Source of the DNA: Mesorhizobium metallidurans STM 2683
GTDB taxonomy: Bacteria; Pseudomonadota; Alphaproteobacteria; Rhizobiales; Rhizobiaceae
DNA length: 64,000 nucleotides
NCBI RefSeq assembly: GCF_000350085.1
Contig: NZ_CAUM01000146.1
Coordinates: 62,001-126,000 of the forward strand
Direction: 5' to 3'
Within the stretch, counting starts at the first letter, position 1. Each line of letters begins with the position of its first letter. The position numbers and the translations under genes were made by a program. The notes under the pieces are model-generated. The model was not told the origin of the DNA, searched no databases, and saw only the letters and a program-made list of their open reading frames with translations. Positions 16,395-22,700 of the stretch are shown one piece after another.

Positions 16395-16765
16395 CGGCGG
16401 GGCGTGAAAAGGCGCAGAGCCGAGGCAAGGAAAGGCTTGGCGCGGCCGCATTCGCGATCACCGTCGCGTTCGAGCTTCTCGAAGGCGCCTTTCCCGAATT
16501 CCATCGGCTGGTGACCGAGAATGCGGCGCTCTCCGTCGAGCTCGAGCCGGATTGCCTGCGCTTCGACGTGCTGACGCCGGCGGACTCGGCCGTCTCCAGC
16601 CATGTCTTCCTCTACGAGATCTACCGCGACCGCGCGGCCTTCGACCTGCATCTTGCCTCGGATCATTTCCGTCAGTTCGACCAACGCTCGCGCGATCTGG
16701 TGATCAGCAAGACCGTAATCGCCTACAGGGTGGAGGAAAACGCCAAAGTCAGGGAAGCGACGTGA
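16391..16765 (+). CDS. Antibiotic-biosynthesis-monooxygenase (ABM)-domain protein
   Basis: A 124-residue dimeric alpha-beta barrel protein of the YgiN/LsrG type: FAITVAFELLEGAFPEFHRL, EPDCLRFDVLTPADSAVSSHVFLYEIYRDRAAFDLHL and FRQFD are family features (read here in pieces). ABM proteins include quinol monooxygenases and the isomerase LsrG. It overlaps both neighbours by 4 bases, so its product is tied to the Gfo dehydrogenase and the lactonase. A role in isomerising or cleaving a sugar-acid intermediate is possible but unproven. Confidence 0.75.
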   Translation: MTAGREKAQSRGKERLGAAAFAITVAFELLEGAFPEFHRLVTENAALSVELEPDCLRFDVLTPADSAVSSHVFLYEIYRDRAAFDLHLASDHFRQFDQRSRDLVISKTVIAYRVEENAKVREAT

Positions 16766-18624
16766 GCGGAGAAGCCAGCAGGCTCGACCTGTTCGGCACG
16801 GACGAACAGGTCGCCGAGCGCCAGACCCTTACCGCCGGTCCGCTGAGCGTGATCCTGGAAGGCGGCAATCTTCACACAATCTCATTTGCCGGCGTCGAAG
16901 TGGTGCGCGCGATAAACTATCTGGCGCGCGACGTATCCTGGGGGACATACAAGGCCGGGCTTACGAACCTCACAATATCGGAGGACAAGGCGGCGTTCGA
17001 GGTCGCCTATGACGGATTGTGCGCCGGTGCGCAGGGCAGATTTTCCTACCGGATGAAAATAATGGGCGACGCTTCTGGAGTGCTGACCTTGGAGGCGGAA
17101 GGCGTCGCGCTCGCTGATTTCCCGACCAATCGCACCGGTTTCGTCGTGCTCCATCCTTCGGAGGCGGCAGGAGGGAGGCTGACCATCCGGCACAGCGACG
17201 GCCGGATCGAGGAGACGGTCTTTCCCGAGGCGATCAGCCCCGACCAGCCGGCCTTCGACATCAGCGCGCTGACGCACGAGCCGGCGCCCGGCCTCATTTG
17301 CACCGTCGCCATGGAAGGCGATGCCTTCGAGATGGAAGACCAGCGCAACTGGACCGACGCCTCGTTCAAGACCTATGTCCGTCCGCTGTCGAAGCCACGG
17401 CCCTATGTCATCGCCAAGGGAGCGAAGGACATCCAGCGCGTCACGGTTTCCATTGAGGCCAAGACTTTGGCGAGCCGACCTGCAATCGCCGAAAAGGCCA
17501 CTCTGACGCTTGGGCCAATTGGGCGGATGCCGTCCATGGCCCTGTTTCTCGATTCCGACAACTTGGCGTCGGCCCGGGCCGGCGCCACGTTGCTCGGTCC
17601 AGCGCAGGATGTCATCGTTCGCTTCGACAGCGCGCGCGGACATGACGCGCATGTGTTGCGCAAGGCGGCCGGCCTTGCCGCGTCGATCGGCGCACGCCTC
17701 GCGATCGAGGCAATCCTTGATGCCGCCAATCCGGCGACTGAGGCGAAAGCTGTCGTCGATGCGATCCGCTCGTCGGAAGTCGAACCGAGTGCCGTTCTGG
17801 TTTCACCACGGCGCGAGTTCAAGACACGGGCGTCGAGTTCGGTGCCTCCGGGTGAACGGCCGATCAGCGACCTCGTGGACGCGCTCAGGGCAAGCGGGAT
17901 ACGCGCCGCCATCGGCGCCGGGACGCCGTCCCTGTTCACCGAATTCAATCGCAACCCGCCGACCGGCGATGCCGATTTCGTCTTCTTCGGCAACGCAGCC
18001 ATTGTTCATGCCGCCGACGATCTTTCGGTCATGGAGACGCTGAGCGTCTATCCCCCGGTCATCGCCGCGACGCGACGGCTGTGCCCGGGAAAGCCTATCT
18101 GGCTCGGACCCTGCACGATCGGCATGCGGCACAATCCCTATGGTCAGGCCGTGGCCGCAAACCCGGCTCTTGCGCGTGTGTCGGGTGCTGGGAACGATCC
18201 CCGGCATGGCGCCCTGTTCGGCGCAGCCTTTGCCGTCGGCGTGGCGGCACAAGCCGCCAGCGCTGAGGTCGATCGTCTCATTCTTGCGTCGCCAACCGGA
18301 GTTTTTGGGCTTGTGGATGATCTCGACCGCAAGCGTCCCGTGCAAGCCGTTCATGCCGAACTCTCTGCCGCAGCCGGTGCGAGGCGCTACGAGGTGGTGG
18401 TCGATCACCCGGGCATCGCGGCGATCGCCTACGGGCTTGGCCAAGACATCAGAGTCCTGGTAGCAAATCTTACGCCCGATGCCGTCGAGATCTCGGTCCC
18501 GCGGGGTGTGCAATTACTCGGTGTCATCGATAAGAATGCGCAGCTTGCGAAATCGCGGCGTAACCAGCTATTGGCGCCATATCGATGTGCGGTTTTTCGC
18601 TCGCAGTCCGGGCCGCACCGCTGA
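16762..18624 (+). CDS. apnL: D-apionolactonase-like three-domain protein
   Basis: A 620-residue protein with an N-terminal beta-rich domain (about residues 1-250), a central TIM-barrel-like domain (about 255-520) and a small C-terminal beta domain. Recognisable stretches are GGVEV-like FAGVEVVRAINYLARD, FEMEDQRNWTDASFKTY, FTEFNRNPP, DDLSVMETL and GPCTIGMRHNPYG, which from memory match the D-apionate lactonase family that opens D-apionolactone to D-apionate. ATG 16762 overlaps the ABM gene by 4 bases. It is the last gene of block C. The match is by eye only; a TIM-barrel glycosidase-like hydrolase of another sugar lactone is the alternative. Confidence 0.68.
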   Translation: MSGEASRLDLFGTDEQVAERQTLTAGPLSVILEGGNLHTISFAGVEVVRAINYLARDVSWGTYKAGLTNLTISEDKAAFEVAYDGLCAGAQGRFSYRMKIMGDASGVLTLEAEGVALADFPTNRTGFVVLHPSEAAGGRLTIRHSDGRIEETVFPEAISPDQPAFDISALTHEPAPGLICTVAMEGDAFEMEDQRNWTDASFKTYVRPLSKPRPYVIAKGAKDIQRVTVSIEAKTLASRPAIAEKATLTLGPIGRMPSMALFLDSDNLASARAGATLLGPAQDVIVRFDSARGHDAHVLRKAAGLAASIGARLAIEAILDAANPATEAKAVVDAIRSSEVEPSAVLVSPRREFKTRASSSVPPGERPISDLVDALRASGIRAAIGAGTPSLFTEFNRNPPTGDADFVFFGNAAIVHAADDLSVMETLSVYPPVIAATRRLCPGKPIWLGPCTIGMRHNPYGQAVAANPALARVSGAGNDPRHGALFGAAFAVGVAAQAASAEVDRLILASPTGVFGLVDDLDRKRPVQAVHAELSAAAGARRYEVVVDHPGIAAIAYGLGQDIRVLVANLTPDAVEISVPRGVQLLGVIDKNAQLAKSRRNQLLAPYRCAVFRSQSGPHR

Positions 18625-18650: not shown

Positions 18651-19697
18651 TCAAAGCGTCGCCAGCCGCGAATTCGGCATGGCCTGTCCGTAGGCCCGGC
18701 GCAGCGTCAGCTTGTCCTCCAGCGCGACGATGACATGTATGGCAAAATCCGTCTTGTACATGTCGGCCAGCCGTATCAGCCCGCCTGGCGTGAAGACATT
18801 GATCTCCAGAAGTCTGTCGCCGACGATGTCGAGGCCAACCAGAAACATGCCGTCGCTGACCAGTTTGGGGCGTACCATCTCGGCAATGCGCAACATCGTG
18901 TCCGTTACCTTGACCTTGCGGGCGGTTCCGGCGGCATGGATGTTGGAGCGAACGTCGCCCTTGGCCGGGACGCGGCGAAAGGCGGCATAATTGCCATCGC
19001 GCATCAGCGGCAGGCCGTTCATCAGGAAAAGGCGCACGTCACCAGCCTTGGCCTCCGGAATGTAGACCTGCGCGATGAGATAGCCGTCACCGCTGGCGGC
19101 CTCGAAAATCTGGTTGAGGTTGGAATCGGTGGCGGTCGCAATATGGAAGACGTTCTTGCCGCCCGACCCTTGCAGTGGTTTGACGATGCAGCCCTTCGGG
19201 TGTTTGTCGATGAATGCGCGTATTTCGGCAATGCTGCGCGATATCAGGGTTGACGGTCGAACCGCCTCGGGAAAGGTCTGCAAATAGAGCTTGCTCTGCG
19301 CCTGCGCCAGGCCGTCAGGATCATTGACGACGATCACGCCGCGCTCCGCCGCGAGCCGGCCGAACATAACGCCCGCGTTGGCGGCCCATGGTCGATCGGT
19401 GGCGTCGAGCGACGGGTCGTTGCGCAGAAACAAGATGTCGATATCGCTTGCCGCGAAGGTCTTTTTTTGCTTCGCGGCATCCTTCAAGGCAGCATGCAGC
19501 TTGTCGGACGTCTTATAGGGAGCGTCCGGCAAAACCGCTACGCTGACAGCCAGACTGTCATCCGGGCGCAATATGAAATCGCCTGGTTCGACATAGACAA
19601 CAGAATGGCCACGTTGGATTGCAGCCAGCGCCAGCGCTGTCGTCGTGTAGCCGGGCGTTTCGCTCTCAATCGAATTGACGAAGAACGCAATGCGCAT
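18651..19697 (-). CDS. Glutathione synthetase-like ATP-grasp ligase
   Basis: A 348-residue ATP-grasp protein close to GshB in layout. The N-terminal FVNSIESETPGYTTTALALA, NDPDGLAQAQSKLYLQTFPE, IVKPLQGSGGKNVF (ATP loop), AGDVRLFLMNG and LEINVFTPGG (metal-binding Glu/Asn) are visible. Glutathione synthetase joins glycine to gamma-glutamylcysteine, but this gene lies in an operon with a DUF1704 peptidase and an N-formylglutamate-amidohydrolase-like gene rather than with gshA, so it probably ligates a different substrate. It is 11 bases downstream of the peptidase gene. It is convergent with block C. Confidence 0.82.
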   Translation of the reverse strand: MRIAFFVNSIESETPGYTTTALALAAIQRGHSVVYVEPGDFILRPDDSLAVSVAVLPDAPYKTSDKLHAALKDAAKQKKTFAASDIDILFLRNDPSLDATDRPWAANAGVMFGRLAAERGVIVVNDPDGLAQAQSKLYLQTFPEAVRPSTLISRSIAEIRAFIDKHPKGCIVKPLQGSGGKNVFHIATATDSNLNQIFEAASGDGYLIAQVYIPEAKAGDVRLFLMNGLPLMRDGNYAAFRRVPAKGDVRSNIHAAGTARKVKVTDTMLRIAEMVRPKLVSDGMFLVGLDIVGDRLLEINVFTPGGLIRLADMYKTDFAIHVIVALEDKLTLRRAYGQAMPNSRLATL

Positions 19698-19708
19698 AGG
19701 GGACTCCC

Positions 19709-21577
19709 TCAGGTCTCAACCATATCGATCGGATCGATCCCTGCCATCGCTTTCTTGAGGCGCGGACGCGCCGCATCGGAAGAAAGGAATGCAGGTTCAA
19801 GGCGCGGCGCCCGCAACAAGCCGCGCGCGTTGAGTTCCTGGATGGCTCCGAAATGCGCTGCGGAGATCTTGCCGATCCAAAACGGCGTGAGGCTGCCACC
19901 GTGCTTCAGGTGATCGAGAACCTGCACCACGCCGCGCAGATAGATGGCGTCTTTTGCAAGGCCACCGCCGCGAAAGACACGCAGCACGACGTTGAAGGCG
20001 CTGCGATCATCGAGACCGAAATCCCTATGAAGAACGTGGAAGGTTTCCTCGAACGTCGCGCCGGCGAGCATCGCCTGACAGGCGATGACCCTGGCCGCGA
20101 TCAGCCGCAAGCGCGCCGCGGTCATGCCGCCGACCAGATACTCCGCCAGCACGGCCAGCCCCTCCTGCATGCCCTCATAGCCCGCAAGCCCGTTGCGGAA
20201 GATGGAGAGCCCCTGCGCATCGCCATTGAAATAGGTCAGCAGATGAACACCGATCTCGTGACTGAGCAGCGCAGTCAGACGCTCTGGTGGAAGGTTGGTA
20301 TCGCGCGAAACCAGCAGCCGGTTTCGAGAGACGAGGAGGCCGGCCGGCAGGTCGCCGCGGATCTCCACGGAAGCATCGAATTCCGGATAGGCTGCCCGGT
20401 ATCCGGCGATCATGTCCCGCGCGGCCGCGGCAACGGCGTCGGCGCCCAGGCCCTTCTGCCGGGCGGCCGACGCAACGCGGGGCACCTTTTCGAGAATGGT
20501 GTGTGCCCTCGCCGCCAGGCTTGGCTCGACGCTGCCATGGAGTGCTCGTCCGAATTCGAGGAAGCGAGGCGTTTCGCGTGCCGCGAGCATCGACAGTTGG
20601 AGATCGAGTTCCTGCTGCCTTTCAGAGAGCAGCTTGGTCAGGAGCGTATCTTCCAGATGATCGAGAGAGACCGAATAGAGCTTCCGCTTCTGGGCGGCAA
20701 CCTCGAACTCGAGCGGCCTGTAGAGCAGTGCGGGCATACGCTCGAAGCCGCCGGCCTGGAATTCCAGCCAGGCTGGTTCGGCGTTGATCGGTGTGACGGC
20801 AAGCAGAAAGTCGAATGTCGACGCGACGTTGTCGACCGCCCGGTCGGCGCGCACGACAGCGTCGATATAGGCGCGGCGACCCAGTGAGCGATGGGTTGCC
20901 GGCTGTTCCAGCCTTGATGCCTTTAGGAAAGCGCTGACGGCCTGAAGTCCAGAATCCACCATGTTGGCGACGACAAGGTCGCGCAATTCAGGATAGACAC
21001 GCTCGCTGCCAGGTACCTTGTAGATCGGCGCGAAGCGCACCGTCAGTTCAGCGACATCGCCGAGATAATCCGTGAGCCGTGCTTCGGCACGTGTCGCGGG
21101 ATTGAGTTCGTCGACGCGAGGCGTGCGGTATTTTGCTTCGCGTCCGGACGCAGCAGTGGCGAAGCGCTTGAGCGCCGCCTTCTCCGCCGCCGTTTTGCCG
21201 CTGGCCAGTGCAATCTCGAAAGGCGGCAGGAACGGCACGTCCTCGGTCAGAAACCGGTCTTCGGCCAACTCGCCGATGTCGAGCACGAGGAATGCGCCGC
21301 AATGATCGCGCATCCTTCGCGCCACCAGCCGCGCGACCTCACCGGCGAAGCCAGTATCGGCCACGATCAGATAGGACGCGTTGGCGGAAACAATTTGGAA
21401 TGCCGCATCCTGGTGCGACCCGACATGGACGCAGAGAAAGGGCAGCGGCCGATCGATGTGCAAACGGTTGCCGTCGCCGAACTCGCGGCGGATCGGCTTG
21501 CCGTCCCGCAAAAGCGCATCCAGGTCCGCTTCGATCTGCGCCAGCGGAGACATAACCTCGACGAGCTTCGGCTTCAT
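19709..21577 (-). CDS. DUF1704/MATCAP-like metallopeptidase with QEGLA motif
   Basis: A 622-residue protein annotated in many genomes as a flavohemoglobin expression-modulating QEGLA-motif protein. A zinc-peptidase HEIGVH (HExxH) is at about residues 439-444 and QEGLAVLAEYL at about 473, supplying a likely third ligand. DUF1704 is the family of the eukaryotic tubulin tyrosine carboxypeptidase MATCAP, so a carboxypeptidase-like activity is plausible. It overlaps the upstream gene by ATGA and is followed closely by the ATP-grasp ligase. No signal peptide is seen, so it is probably cytoplasmic. Confidence 0.82.
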   Translation of the reverse strand: MKPKLVEVMSPLAQIEADLDALLRDGKPIRREFGDGNRLHIDRPLPFLCVHVGSHQDAAFQIVSANASYLIVADTGFAGEVARLVARRMRDHCGAFLVLDIGELAEDRFLTEDVPFLPPFEIALASGKTAAEKAALKRFATAASGREAKYRTPRVDELNPATRAEARLTDYLGDVAELTVRFAPIYKVPGSERVYPELRDLVVANMVDSGLQAVSAFLKASRLEQPATHRSLGRRAYIDAVVRADRAVDNVASTFDFLLAVTPINAEPAWLEFQAGGFERMPALLYRPLEFEVAAQKRKLYSVSLDHLEDTLLTKLLSERQQELDLQLSMLAARETPRFLEFGRALHGSVEPSLAARAHTILEKVPRVASAARQKGLGADAVAAAARDMIAGYRAAYPEFDASVEIRGDLPAGLLVSRNRLLVSRDTNLPPERLTALLSHEIGVHLLTYFNGDAQGLSIFRNGLAGYEGMQEGLAVLAEYLVGGMTAARLRLIAARVIACQAMLAGATFEETFHVLHRDFGLDDRSAFNVVLRVFRGGGLAKDAIYLRGVVQVLDHLKHGGSLTPFWIGKISAAHFGAIQELNARGLLRAPRLEPAFLSSDAARPRLKKAMAGIDPIDMVET

Positions 21578-22395
21578 GTCATGCCTCGCAGCGCGGCCTC
21601 AAGAACCGGCACCGTGGACGCCAGCATGGCGCGCAGCCGTTCGATTGCCGCCCAGTCGGGGTTGCCGCTCCATTCGTCCATGAAAATCTTCTTGAACTCG
21701 ACCGCGATGGCACAGCCGGTTTCGGGGAAATTGGCGTGGACGAAACGGGTCTGTTCGCCCTTGCCCTGGAACGATACATTCTCGCGTATGTCGATCGGCT
21801 CGCCATTGAGACGCTGGCCGCGCAATGTCTCCATGAAGGCGTCGACCACCGGCGCCCAGCGCGCGCGGTCCATGGAGAATGTGCCGATATTGATGTCGGG
21901 CGCGACATCTTGCGACGCGGGCACTGCTTTCGGCCCTTCGCGCCGGTGATTATAGCTGTGGACGTCGACAAGGACGAACCGGCCATGGCGCTTCTCGACA
22001 TCGGTCAGGACACGCCTGAGCTCGCCGTAGAACGCGTCGTGAAAGGCAGCAGATTCGTTCACAATGTCTTCAGCCGGCGGCTCTCGCCATACGTTCAGGC
22101 CCCAGGACTGGTCCGGCGACCGATAGATGGCAGCGTCGCGCGCGCGGTTCAGATCGACTTGAAAGCGCGATCGATGAACGACGATCTGGGTTGGGAAATC
22201 GGCGATAAAGTGCTCGGTGAAGGGGTCCTCCTCCCGCAGCCGGTCAGGATCAGGGATGCACATGAGCGATTGGCAGGCGCGCCCGATGTCGGAGCCGCTG
22301 TGGATCGCCGTGCCGATGACGGGAGAATCGCCCAGCTTGATTGTCCAGCCTGCCTGGGGCCTGCCCGGAGCACTATTGAAAGTGGATTTGTTCAC
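21574..22395 (-). CDS. N-formylglutamate amidohydrolase-family protein
   Basis: A 273-residue protein of the HutG-type N-formylglutamate amidohydrolase fold. VVHRSRFQVDLNRARDAAIY, LVDVHSYNHRREGP and INIGTFS are typical metal and substrate stretches. It is not beside histidine-utilisation genes but is first in the three-gene operon with the QEGLA peptidase and the ATP-grasp ligase, so it may remove an acyl or aminoacyl cap from a small peptide or amino acid in that system. The region 22396-22623 upstream shows no gene. Confidence 0.82.
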   Translation of the reverse strand: MNKSTFNSAPGRPQAGWTIKLGDSPVIGTAIHSGSDIGRACQSLMCIPDPDRLREEDPFTEHFIADFPTQIVVHRSRFQVDLNRARDAAIYRSPDQSWGLNVWREPPAEDIVNESAAFHDAFYGELRRVLTDVEKRHGRFVLVDVHSYNHRREGPKAVPASQDVAPDINIGTFSMDRARWAPVVDAFMETLRGQRLNGEPIDIRENVSFQGKGEQTRFVHANFPETGCAIAVEFKKIFMDEWSGNPDWAAIERLRAMLASTVPVLEAALRGMT

Positions 22396-22623
22396 GATCC
22401 ATCGAAATGCGCGGAGAGGGTCAGCGGTTCCGGTTCATAAGGCAAGCCCAACGGGTTTACTTCTAAGAAACCGAATCCTCAACATGGAAGACAGACGCCG
22501 GAGACGATTGAGACCTGTCAGAGCTTCGCTGCCGCTTTCCGACAAGGAAATAGTTTGCTCCTCATGGAGTGAAACCCGCAAGGCCAAGGCCACATTGACG
22601 ATCACGGAAGGCGAGGAAGCCGA

Positions 22624-22700
22624 TGGTACCGTTGGCTGGGATCGAACCAGCGACCTCCGGATCCACAATCCGGCGCTCTAACCATCTGAGCTACAACGGC
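22624..22700 (-). tRNA. tRNA-His (GTG)
   Basis: A 77-base tRNA with encoded CCA. The anticodon stem CCGGA/TCCGG encloses TTGTGGA, giving anticodon GTG. The D-arm (AGCTCAGATGGTTAGAGC) and T-arm (GGTTCGATCCC) are normal. The acceptor stem GCCGTTG pairs with CAACGGT, with a G1-U72 wobble, discriminator A73, and T rather than G at -1. Missing G-1 with A73 is a known feature of many Alphaproteobacteria. Confidence 0.95.

Follow-up and report, generated by a model that had tools for sequence, protein, structure and literature searches.

A GshB-like ligase encoded with a MATCAP-family peptidase and an FGase-type amidohydrolase in Mesorhizobium and other bacteria: a candidate module for a small glutamyl peptide

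What might an ATP-grasp ligase, a metallopeptidase and an amidohydrolase accomplish together when a bacterium encodes them side by side? The question is raised by a locus of Mesorhizobium metallidurans STM 2683, found in a stretch of 64,000 nucleotides (the window; contig NZ_CAUM01000146.1, positions 62,001 to 126,000), where three genes lie on the minus strand at 18651–22395 and are transcribed in the order P0003, P0002, P0001. P0003 belongs to the N-formylglutamate amidohydrolase (FGase) type, P0002 is a peptidase of the MATCAP family, and P0001 is a GshB-like ATP-grasp ligase. An earlier note on this DNA had likened the trio to the tubulin tyrosination cycle, where a ligase (TTL) adds tyrosine and a MATCAP peptidase removes it. 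We tentatively favour another reading, which we hold to be somewhat short of probable, namely that the trio is a self-contained cytosolic module making and dismantling one small glutamyl peptide.

The FGase and MATCAP reading frames overlap by 4 bases, and only 11 bases separate the MATCAP stop from the ligase start. Coordinates and strand were confirmed, and Pfam and NCBIfam profiles place the three products in the ligase, DUF1704-type peptidase and FGase-type families, so that the three coupled genes are indeed as the earlier note had described them. The features of the locus are collected in Table 1; loci and genomes elsewhere are designated below by our own numbers (L and G).

Linkage of the three genes across genomes

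A scan of named genomes yielded 192 confirmed relatives, and the best 80 of them were kept as loci. All 80 lie in Hyphomicrobiales as judged by genus name. The FGase gene adjoins the MATCAP gene in 80 of 80 loci and the ligase gene is present in 79, the exception (L033) being a 3-kb contig that ends; likewise, one strand is shared by all three genes in 79 of the 80. Rarity of co-occurrence had been proposed in the earlier note as an observation that would speak against its reading; the survey has now been made, and co-occurrence is not rare.

A MATCAP gene is found in 8 of 37 genomes of the window's genus, the window genome counted in, and a match to PF08014 in 7 of the 240 genomes of a class sample. 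Trio-type ligases (at least 377 bits with NF009110) occur in three of these 240 genomes, each at most 60 bases from a long MATCAP match, while all other NF009110 matches listed in the class sample (E up to 1e-60) score at most 235.3 bits. In a phylum sample of 398 genomes, PF08014 matches 47 genomes (53 matches), and the ligase subfamily profile PRK12458 scores above its cut-off in 14 (16 genes). By coordinates, a MATCAP gene adjoins 15 of these 16 ligases; for the sixteenth, 48 bases lie between its start and a contig end. FGase was looked for in 14 of the 15 linked loci (all but G452), and it is adjacent, near or fused in 12 of them; the other two are L181, cut by the contig start, and L164, with no FGase in the stretch examined. 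The gene association is thus far above chance, the pairing is found in several families and in two gene architectures, and the coupling of an ATP-grasp ligase to a MATCAP-fold peptidase, claimed from the single locus, is real.

The other 38 MATCAP matches of the phylum sample are without a PRK12458-type ligase. Seventeen ligase-free MATCAP loci (14 of these 38 and three from the class sample; L162, L171–L178, L183–L190) were considered as possible parts of the same system and rejected, since neither an FGase nor a trio-type ligase was found in any of the 17 stretches examined. One of them, L174, has a weak RimK-like match (61 bits) about 5 kb off.

The second architecture is a fusion. In L160, L165, L167, L168, L169 and L170, FGase fronts MATCAP in one protein of 660–703 residues, with the ligase gene directly before it; a Pfam scan confirmed the arrangement in both fusion proteins scanned, and two Photobacterium records (L215 and L221) also have the fusion beside a ligase. 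The FGase residues H32, D81, N83, H146 and E233 (numbered as in P0003) are kept in five of the six fusions. In the sixth, L160, H146 and E233 are gone and the FGase domain is degenerate, and Ser replaces D57 in L160 and L168. Fusion elsewhere suggests that both hydrolases act on one molecule in sequence.

Table 1. Positions of the trio, its domains and motifs, and the promoter-like site in the window
Feature	Position	Strand	Remarks
P0003, FGase-type amidohydrolase, first gene	21574–22395	-	273 aa, GTG start, PF05013
P0002, MATCAP-family metallopeptidase with extra N-terminal domain, second gene	19709–21577	-	622 aa, PF08014
P0002 N-terminal domain, residues 1–245, FGase/M14-like fold	20843–21577	-	hhalign, fold comparison
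P0002 MATCAP domain, from residue 258	19709–20806	-	fold match to human MATCAP 7z6s
P0002 HEIGVH zinc motif, residues 440–445	20243–20260	-	H440, E441 and H445 kept in 50/50 rows
P0002 QEGLA motif, residues 471–475	20153–20167	-	E472 in 50/50 rows
P0001, GshB-like ATP-grasp ligase, PRK12458 subfamily, third gene	18651–19697	-	348 aa, PF02955
GGAAC-N19-TT, EcfG/RpoE2-promoter-like site	22406–22431	-	11–36 bases before the FGase start codon

Families, folds and catalytic residues

P0002 matches the Pfam MATCAP family PF08014 with 304.7 bits (cut-off 27, E 1.1e-90) and the NCBIfam QEGLA family TIGR02421 with 355.9 bits (cut-off 338.65). The peptidase family and the QEGLA motif named in the earlier note were borne out, while the zinc motif given there as HExxH is HEIGVH, i.e., HExxxH, the form reported for TMCP/MATCAP in an excerpt of PMC10499314. 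Besides the invariant residues of this motif, E472 is likely a further zinc ligand. In the structural model (mean predicted local distance difference test score, pLDDT, 88.5), the C-terminal domain superimposes on human MATCAP 7z6s with Z 24.0 and a root-mean-square deviation (rmsd) of 3.3 over 293 aligned residues at 21% identity, the next different family having Z 16.7. Profile, motif and fold thus agree on membership in the MATCAP family. Our literature searches brought up no paper that describes an activity for the bacterial MATCAP/QEGLA family, whose members are named flavohemoglobin expression-modulating proteins. A QEGLA-motif gene of Photobacterium damselae, A0J47_RS17025, is given with 27.51 (log2 4.78) in the part of a salinity transcriptome report that lists it (PMC10308900).

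In the MATCAP tree, the domains of the trio and fusion proteins are split from 14 short, unlinked ones with a branch support of 100/100 (90/99 once the human fragment is added), and their side also takes in two 393-residue forms that are unlinked and one long form that stands alone. A first tree put human MATCAP with the ligase-linked branch; this placement was dropped, as one row (L170) was badly cut and the human branch is very long, and the repeat tree does not settle the place of the human protein, so that no claim on its origin is made.

A Pfam scan at E up to 1 finds nothing in residues 1–245 of P0002. In the model, residues 34–221 adopt a fold of the FGase/M14 type, with Z scores of 11.3 against FGase 2q7s and 10.7 against 2odf, and similar ones against carboxypeptidases and a poly-γ-glutamate hydrolase. 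Profile comparison with the fused FGase domains gave an hhalign probability of 93 (E 2.8e-7, 202 columns), and in this alignment Gly and Arg face the FGase residues H146 and E233. On these comparisons of profiles and models, it is likely, if less firm than the other computed results, that the N-terminal part of P0002 is a degenerate FGase-like domain.

P0003 matches Pfam FGase PF05013 with 77.8 bits (cut-off 28.9, E 1.8e-21) and lies below the cut-off of TIGR02017, the equivalog of the N-formylglutamate deformylase HutG (26.1 vs. 278.75). Its model (pLDDT 87.7) gives Z 24.2 to FGase 2q7s (rmsd 2.4, 235 aligned) and Z 22.7 to 2odf, the next family following at Z 12.3. Residues H32, E55, E56, D57, D81, N83, R84, H146 and E233 are invariant in 43 of 43 aligned rows. 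Outside the trio, L212:7744–9775 contains an FGase-type gene next to one whose product has a Tle1-like type VI phospholipase domain; the fusion, too, is present in this genome.

P0001 carries the GSH-S_ATP domain (PF02955, E 4.9e-51) and passes the cut-off of the NCBIfam subfamily PRK12458 (NF009110; 463.7 bits, cut-off 408), as do the ligase of L163, the fusion-type ligase of L167 (476.2 bits) and the 16 genes of the phylum sample; the trio-type ligases of G116 (404.3) and G091 (377.2) are just below. It stays under both GshB cut-offs (TIGR01380, 200.2 vs. 299.05; NF003573, 213.6 vs. 272). Eight residues, K136, K173, D220, R222, R250, D290, E298 and N300, are common to at least 90% of the trio (20 rows), fusion (6) and canonical GshB (28) sequences; presumably they are the ATP and Mg positions known from E. 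coli GshB. The loop after the metal-binding Asn reads SPTG in 28 of 28 canonical rows, against TPGG (11), SPGG (8) or TPGA (1) in the 20 trio rows and SPGG (5) or APGG (1) in the fusion rows. In the ligase tree, canonical GshB (28 rows), trio (19) and fusion (6) ligases stand on three sides of well-supported branches. Because the tree has no outgroup, it does not tell which two groups are sisters, and a single origin of the trio and fusion ligases, also considered, was set aside.

A promoter-like site of the general stress type

The pattern GGAAC-N18/19-TT, which we take to be the EcfG/RpoE2 consensus, precedes FGase in 63 of 79 loci, i.e., in 26/26 of a Mesorhizobium/Aminobacter set and in 37/53 of the others. 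After thinning at 90, 80 and 70% identity, it is retained in 41/53, 20/30 and 10/15 loci, respectively. Against the 10 observed in the 15-locus set, 500 random draws averaged 0.57 and reached at most 4; the site precedes 8 of 158 other open reading frames (ORFs) of at least 300 residues in the thinned loci, and the reverse strand of the same regions has it in 8 of 80, the window included. In Sinorhizobium meliloti 1021, whose pSymB carries the trio, two sites precede the FGase ORF, at distances of 32 and 250 bases. The RpoE2-dependent promoters printed in PMC6180224 look alike, and the same paper calls RpoE2 the general stress sigma factor of S. meliloti. By its sequence, the operon probably belongs to the general stress regulon in Hyphomicrobiales. 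LysR-type genes are divergent from the operon in seven loci outside the order (L159, L161, L163, L164, L165, L169 and L170).

A possible glutamyl-peptide module and its rivals

Known members of the GshB and FGase families act on glutamyl substrates, and TMCP/MATCAP, as described in an excerpt of PMC10499314, trims C-termini and also removes polyglutamate. In the module that we favour, P0001 would attach, at the cost of ATP, an amino acid to the carboxyl terminus of a glutamyl peptide, which may be γ-Glu-Cys-like; P0002 would take off the C-terminal residue; P0003 would hydrolyse the amide at the glutamate end or at an N-terminal cap; and the two hydrolases would attack one molecule, one after the other. 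The degenerate FGase-like domain of P0002 would be either a leftover or a docking or recognition domain, and the product is perhaps glutathione-like, in keeping with the six genomes described below that have this ligase and no other GshB-like match. Computation gives us the gene set, the families and folds, the retained catalytic residues, the fusion, the promoter-like site and, less firmly, the degenerate domain; that the enzymes share a substrate, that it is glutamyl in nature, which way each step runs and that stress is involved are inferred. A bolder version, rather doubtful in our estimate, would make the trio the source of a third stress peptide beside glutathione and the osmolyte N-acetylglutaminylglutamine amide (NAGGN): in the general stress response of Alphaproteobacteria, a GshB-derived ligase would build an undescribed glutamyl-peptide metabolite that FGase and MATCAP dismantle from both ends; the peptidase family of the human tubulin detyrosinase would then already have worked opposite an ATP-grasp ligase in one bacterial branch.

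Several facts weigh against the glutamyl-peptide module. The substrate, the product and the stress-linked expression of the trio are predictions. In none of the seven loci examined beyond the window's order (G304, G376, G091 and G116, with three fusions; three of the seven are from the same class) was the stress-type site found, and it is also missing in 5 of the 15 thinned loci, in Mesorhizobium AR07 and before three of five solo ligases. Other genes separate FGase from MATCAP in L161 and L182, and L164 shows no FGase at all in the stretch examined. As for the N-terminal domain of P0002, a Z of about 11 is common to many M14-fold proteins, and the match to stand-alone FGases is weak (hhalign probability 28.6). 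Two unlinked 393-residue MATCAPs (L171 and L172) fall inside the fusion branch, and a long MATCAP stands alone in G376 (L162). Finally, among eight ligase records opened as likely exceptions, a choice that does not give the frequency of solo ligases, five have a trio-type ligase around which some 13 kb show neither FGase nor MATCAP (L216, L218, L219, L223 and L225, all on Ensifer and Sinorhizobium plasmids), and the fusion of Vibrio sp. HDW18 has no ligase within the 12 kb examined (L220).

The rival that survives best, though we consider it unlikely, is a secondary glutathione synthetase with recycling, in which P0001 would make glutathione, or a close variant where a different amino acid replaces glycine, and the product would be degraded by the hydrolases. 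The GshB domains and residues kept in P0001 favour it, and so do six genomes (G304, G329, G376, G395, G452 and G391) whose only TIGR01380 matches at E 1e-30 are PRK12458-type ligases. A GCS2 protein (PF04107) is present in six of these six, and all four that were typed (G304, G376, G329 and G395) have a true GshA by TIGR01436 (686–862 bits, cut-off 463); a search with PF08886, another GshA type, gave matches in neither targets nor controls. The presence of GshA in genomes where a PRK12458-type ligase is the only such match speaks for a γ-Glu-Cys substrate in these genomes and against a glutathione-free reading. However, the completeness of the six is 99, 99, 99, 90, 65 and 82%, respectively (G304 being a single contig), so that three of them are only 65–90% complete, and the absence of GshB refers to the TIGR01380 search, unrelated kinds of glutathione synthetase not having been searched for. 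Against this rival, too, P0001 scores under the GshB cut-offs and lies outside the clan of the 28 canonical enzymes; a second ligase, GshB-like by score, exists in the window genome, G091 and G116; and a further ligase over the TIGR01380 cut-off is found in 7 of 13 further genomes, all six fusion genomes among them. Moreover, a S. meliloti gshB mutant is glutathione-defective according to a passage of the review PMC8226930 that does not state the strain, although strain 1021 has the trio. At L205, L206 and L208, from genomes whose GshB-like matches are all of the PRK12458 type, the GshA gene directly adjoins a divergent gene for a potassium channel with TrkA domains; L207, from another such genome, has two ORFs between them.

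It is quite improbable that the trio handles poly-glutamate or glutamyl oligomers after the manner of RimK/RimB, the ligase extending a glutamate chain and the hydrolases shortening it. The removal of polyglutamate by TMCP/MATCAP fits such a role, phage poly-γ-glutamate hydrolases share the FGase-like fold, as comparison of the P0002 and P0003 models indicated, and an RloA-like retropepsin, an RloB-like membrane protein and a RimK-related ligase are encoded directly after the trio at L163:2765–5777 and L181:2688–5679 (families scanned in L163, assigned by similarity in L181). But these neighbours occur in only two genomes of one genus, and P0001 falls far below the RimK-family cut-off (61.4 vs. 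143.4 bits).

Slightly less probable still is the protein form of the earlier note's own proposal, a reversible addition of an amino acid to a protein end. The pairing of a MATCAP fold with an ATP-grasp ligase stands, and a bacterial protein-tail cycle does exist in RimK/RimB (excerpt of PMC11957791); yet P0001 is of the GshB family (PRK12458), whose enzymes work on small peptides, and the Pfam scan gave no match of P0001 to TTL (PF03133) at E up to 1, so that the likeness to TTL has to be given up and the tubulin parallel is loose. Nor was a fourth gene or a protein substrate seen conserved around the 80 loci when ORFs of at least 70 residues were surveyed up to 10 kb on each side (45 most frequent groups): the remaining frequent neighbour groups lie inside the trio, mostly antisense, or are scattered on both sides. 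A protein substrate would also leave FGase without an evident role. A cycle of addition and removal, as the earlier note had it, is possible, with a small peptide as a more likely substrate than a protein.

Least probable, in our view, is shared stress regulation without a shared substrate, the hydrolases being general peptide scavengers: solo ligases and a fusion without ligase exist, and the solo ligase of Ensifer CTYH.Ch1 sits among CsbD, PRC-barrel and ferritin-like genes (L225), but the linkage is nearly complete in both directions across families, reaches as far as fusion and is mirrored in the well-supported MATCAP split, and Ensifer M8 and CTYH.Ch1 carry, besides their solo ligases, a whole trio on another replicon.

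By analogy, two Pseudomonas systems appear to be closer bacterial parallels to the trio than the tubulin cycle. In RimK/RimB (RimABK), an ATP-grasp ligase is co-encoded with a peptidase that undoes its addition, and a RimB–RimK hybrid exists, but the peptidase is a retropepsin, the ligase belongs to the RimK family, the target is RpsF and free poly-glutamate, and there is no FGase, as far as an excerpt of PMC11957791 describes the system. RloABC of Pseudomonas aeruginosa is also a three-gene operon with an ATP-grasp protein, a peptidase and a link to osmotic stress; it differs in its secreted retropepsin and its inactive membrane transglutaminase (excerpt of PMC12239564). PF05618, the retropepsin partner, was found in none of P0001–P0003 in the Pfam scan. 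Two further systems work on small molecules. In rhizobia, the NAGGN osmolyte system (ngg, asnO and an M42 peptidase) combines an ATP-grasp ligase and a peptidase that serve a small dipeptide linked to stress; unlike the trio, it employs a GNAT–ATP-grasp fusion, an M42 peptidase and an asparagine-synthetase-like protein, and its profile TIGR03103 does not appear in the list of 10 families for P0001. Glutathionylspermidine synthetase/amidase sets an ATP-grasp synthetase against an amidase on one small peptide within one protein, with an amidase of the CHAP fold, unlike that of the trio. Human MATCAP/TMCP1 with TTL shares the peptidase fold and HExxxH (excerpt of PMC10499314), but the identity is 21% over the 293 aligned residues, the ligase of the trio is not TTL, and the trio has an extra FGase enzyme, without counterpart in the tubulin cycle as described there, and an extra FGase-like domain.

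No description of the trio was found in the open literature; a 2009 review by Iyer and co-workers, which is said to deal with amidoligase–peptidase operons, may mention it. The association ties a branch of the MATCAP/QEGLA family to a ligase, an FGase and a stress-type promoter, which makes a testable pathway in well-studied rhizobia; it also indicates that some genes annotated as glutathione synthetase form a separate subfamily, and it offers a bacterial setting for asking what relatives of tubulin-trimming enzymes do.

Among the remaining opened ligase records, L217 and L224 (two of eight) have the whole trio, the surroundings of L224 (Roseateles, UNVERIFIED_ORG) being as in Shinella zoogloeoides L193, so that its name may be wrong. 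On a Phyllobacterium zundukense plasmid (L222), FGase, MATCAP and ligase are each split into several ORFs, and the solo ligase of L219 lies near ligD. In the window, a tRNA-His gene (22624–22700) is situated upstream of the trio, which starts 228 bases away; a tRNA-His genomic island was considered and rejected, since 0 of 24 related loci show tRNA-His (one has tRNA-Gln), and the site is thus no general integration site. On the other side, a 690-residue ORF, without a Pfam match at E 0.001, adjoins the trio at 16552–18624.

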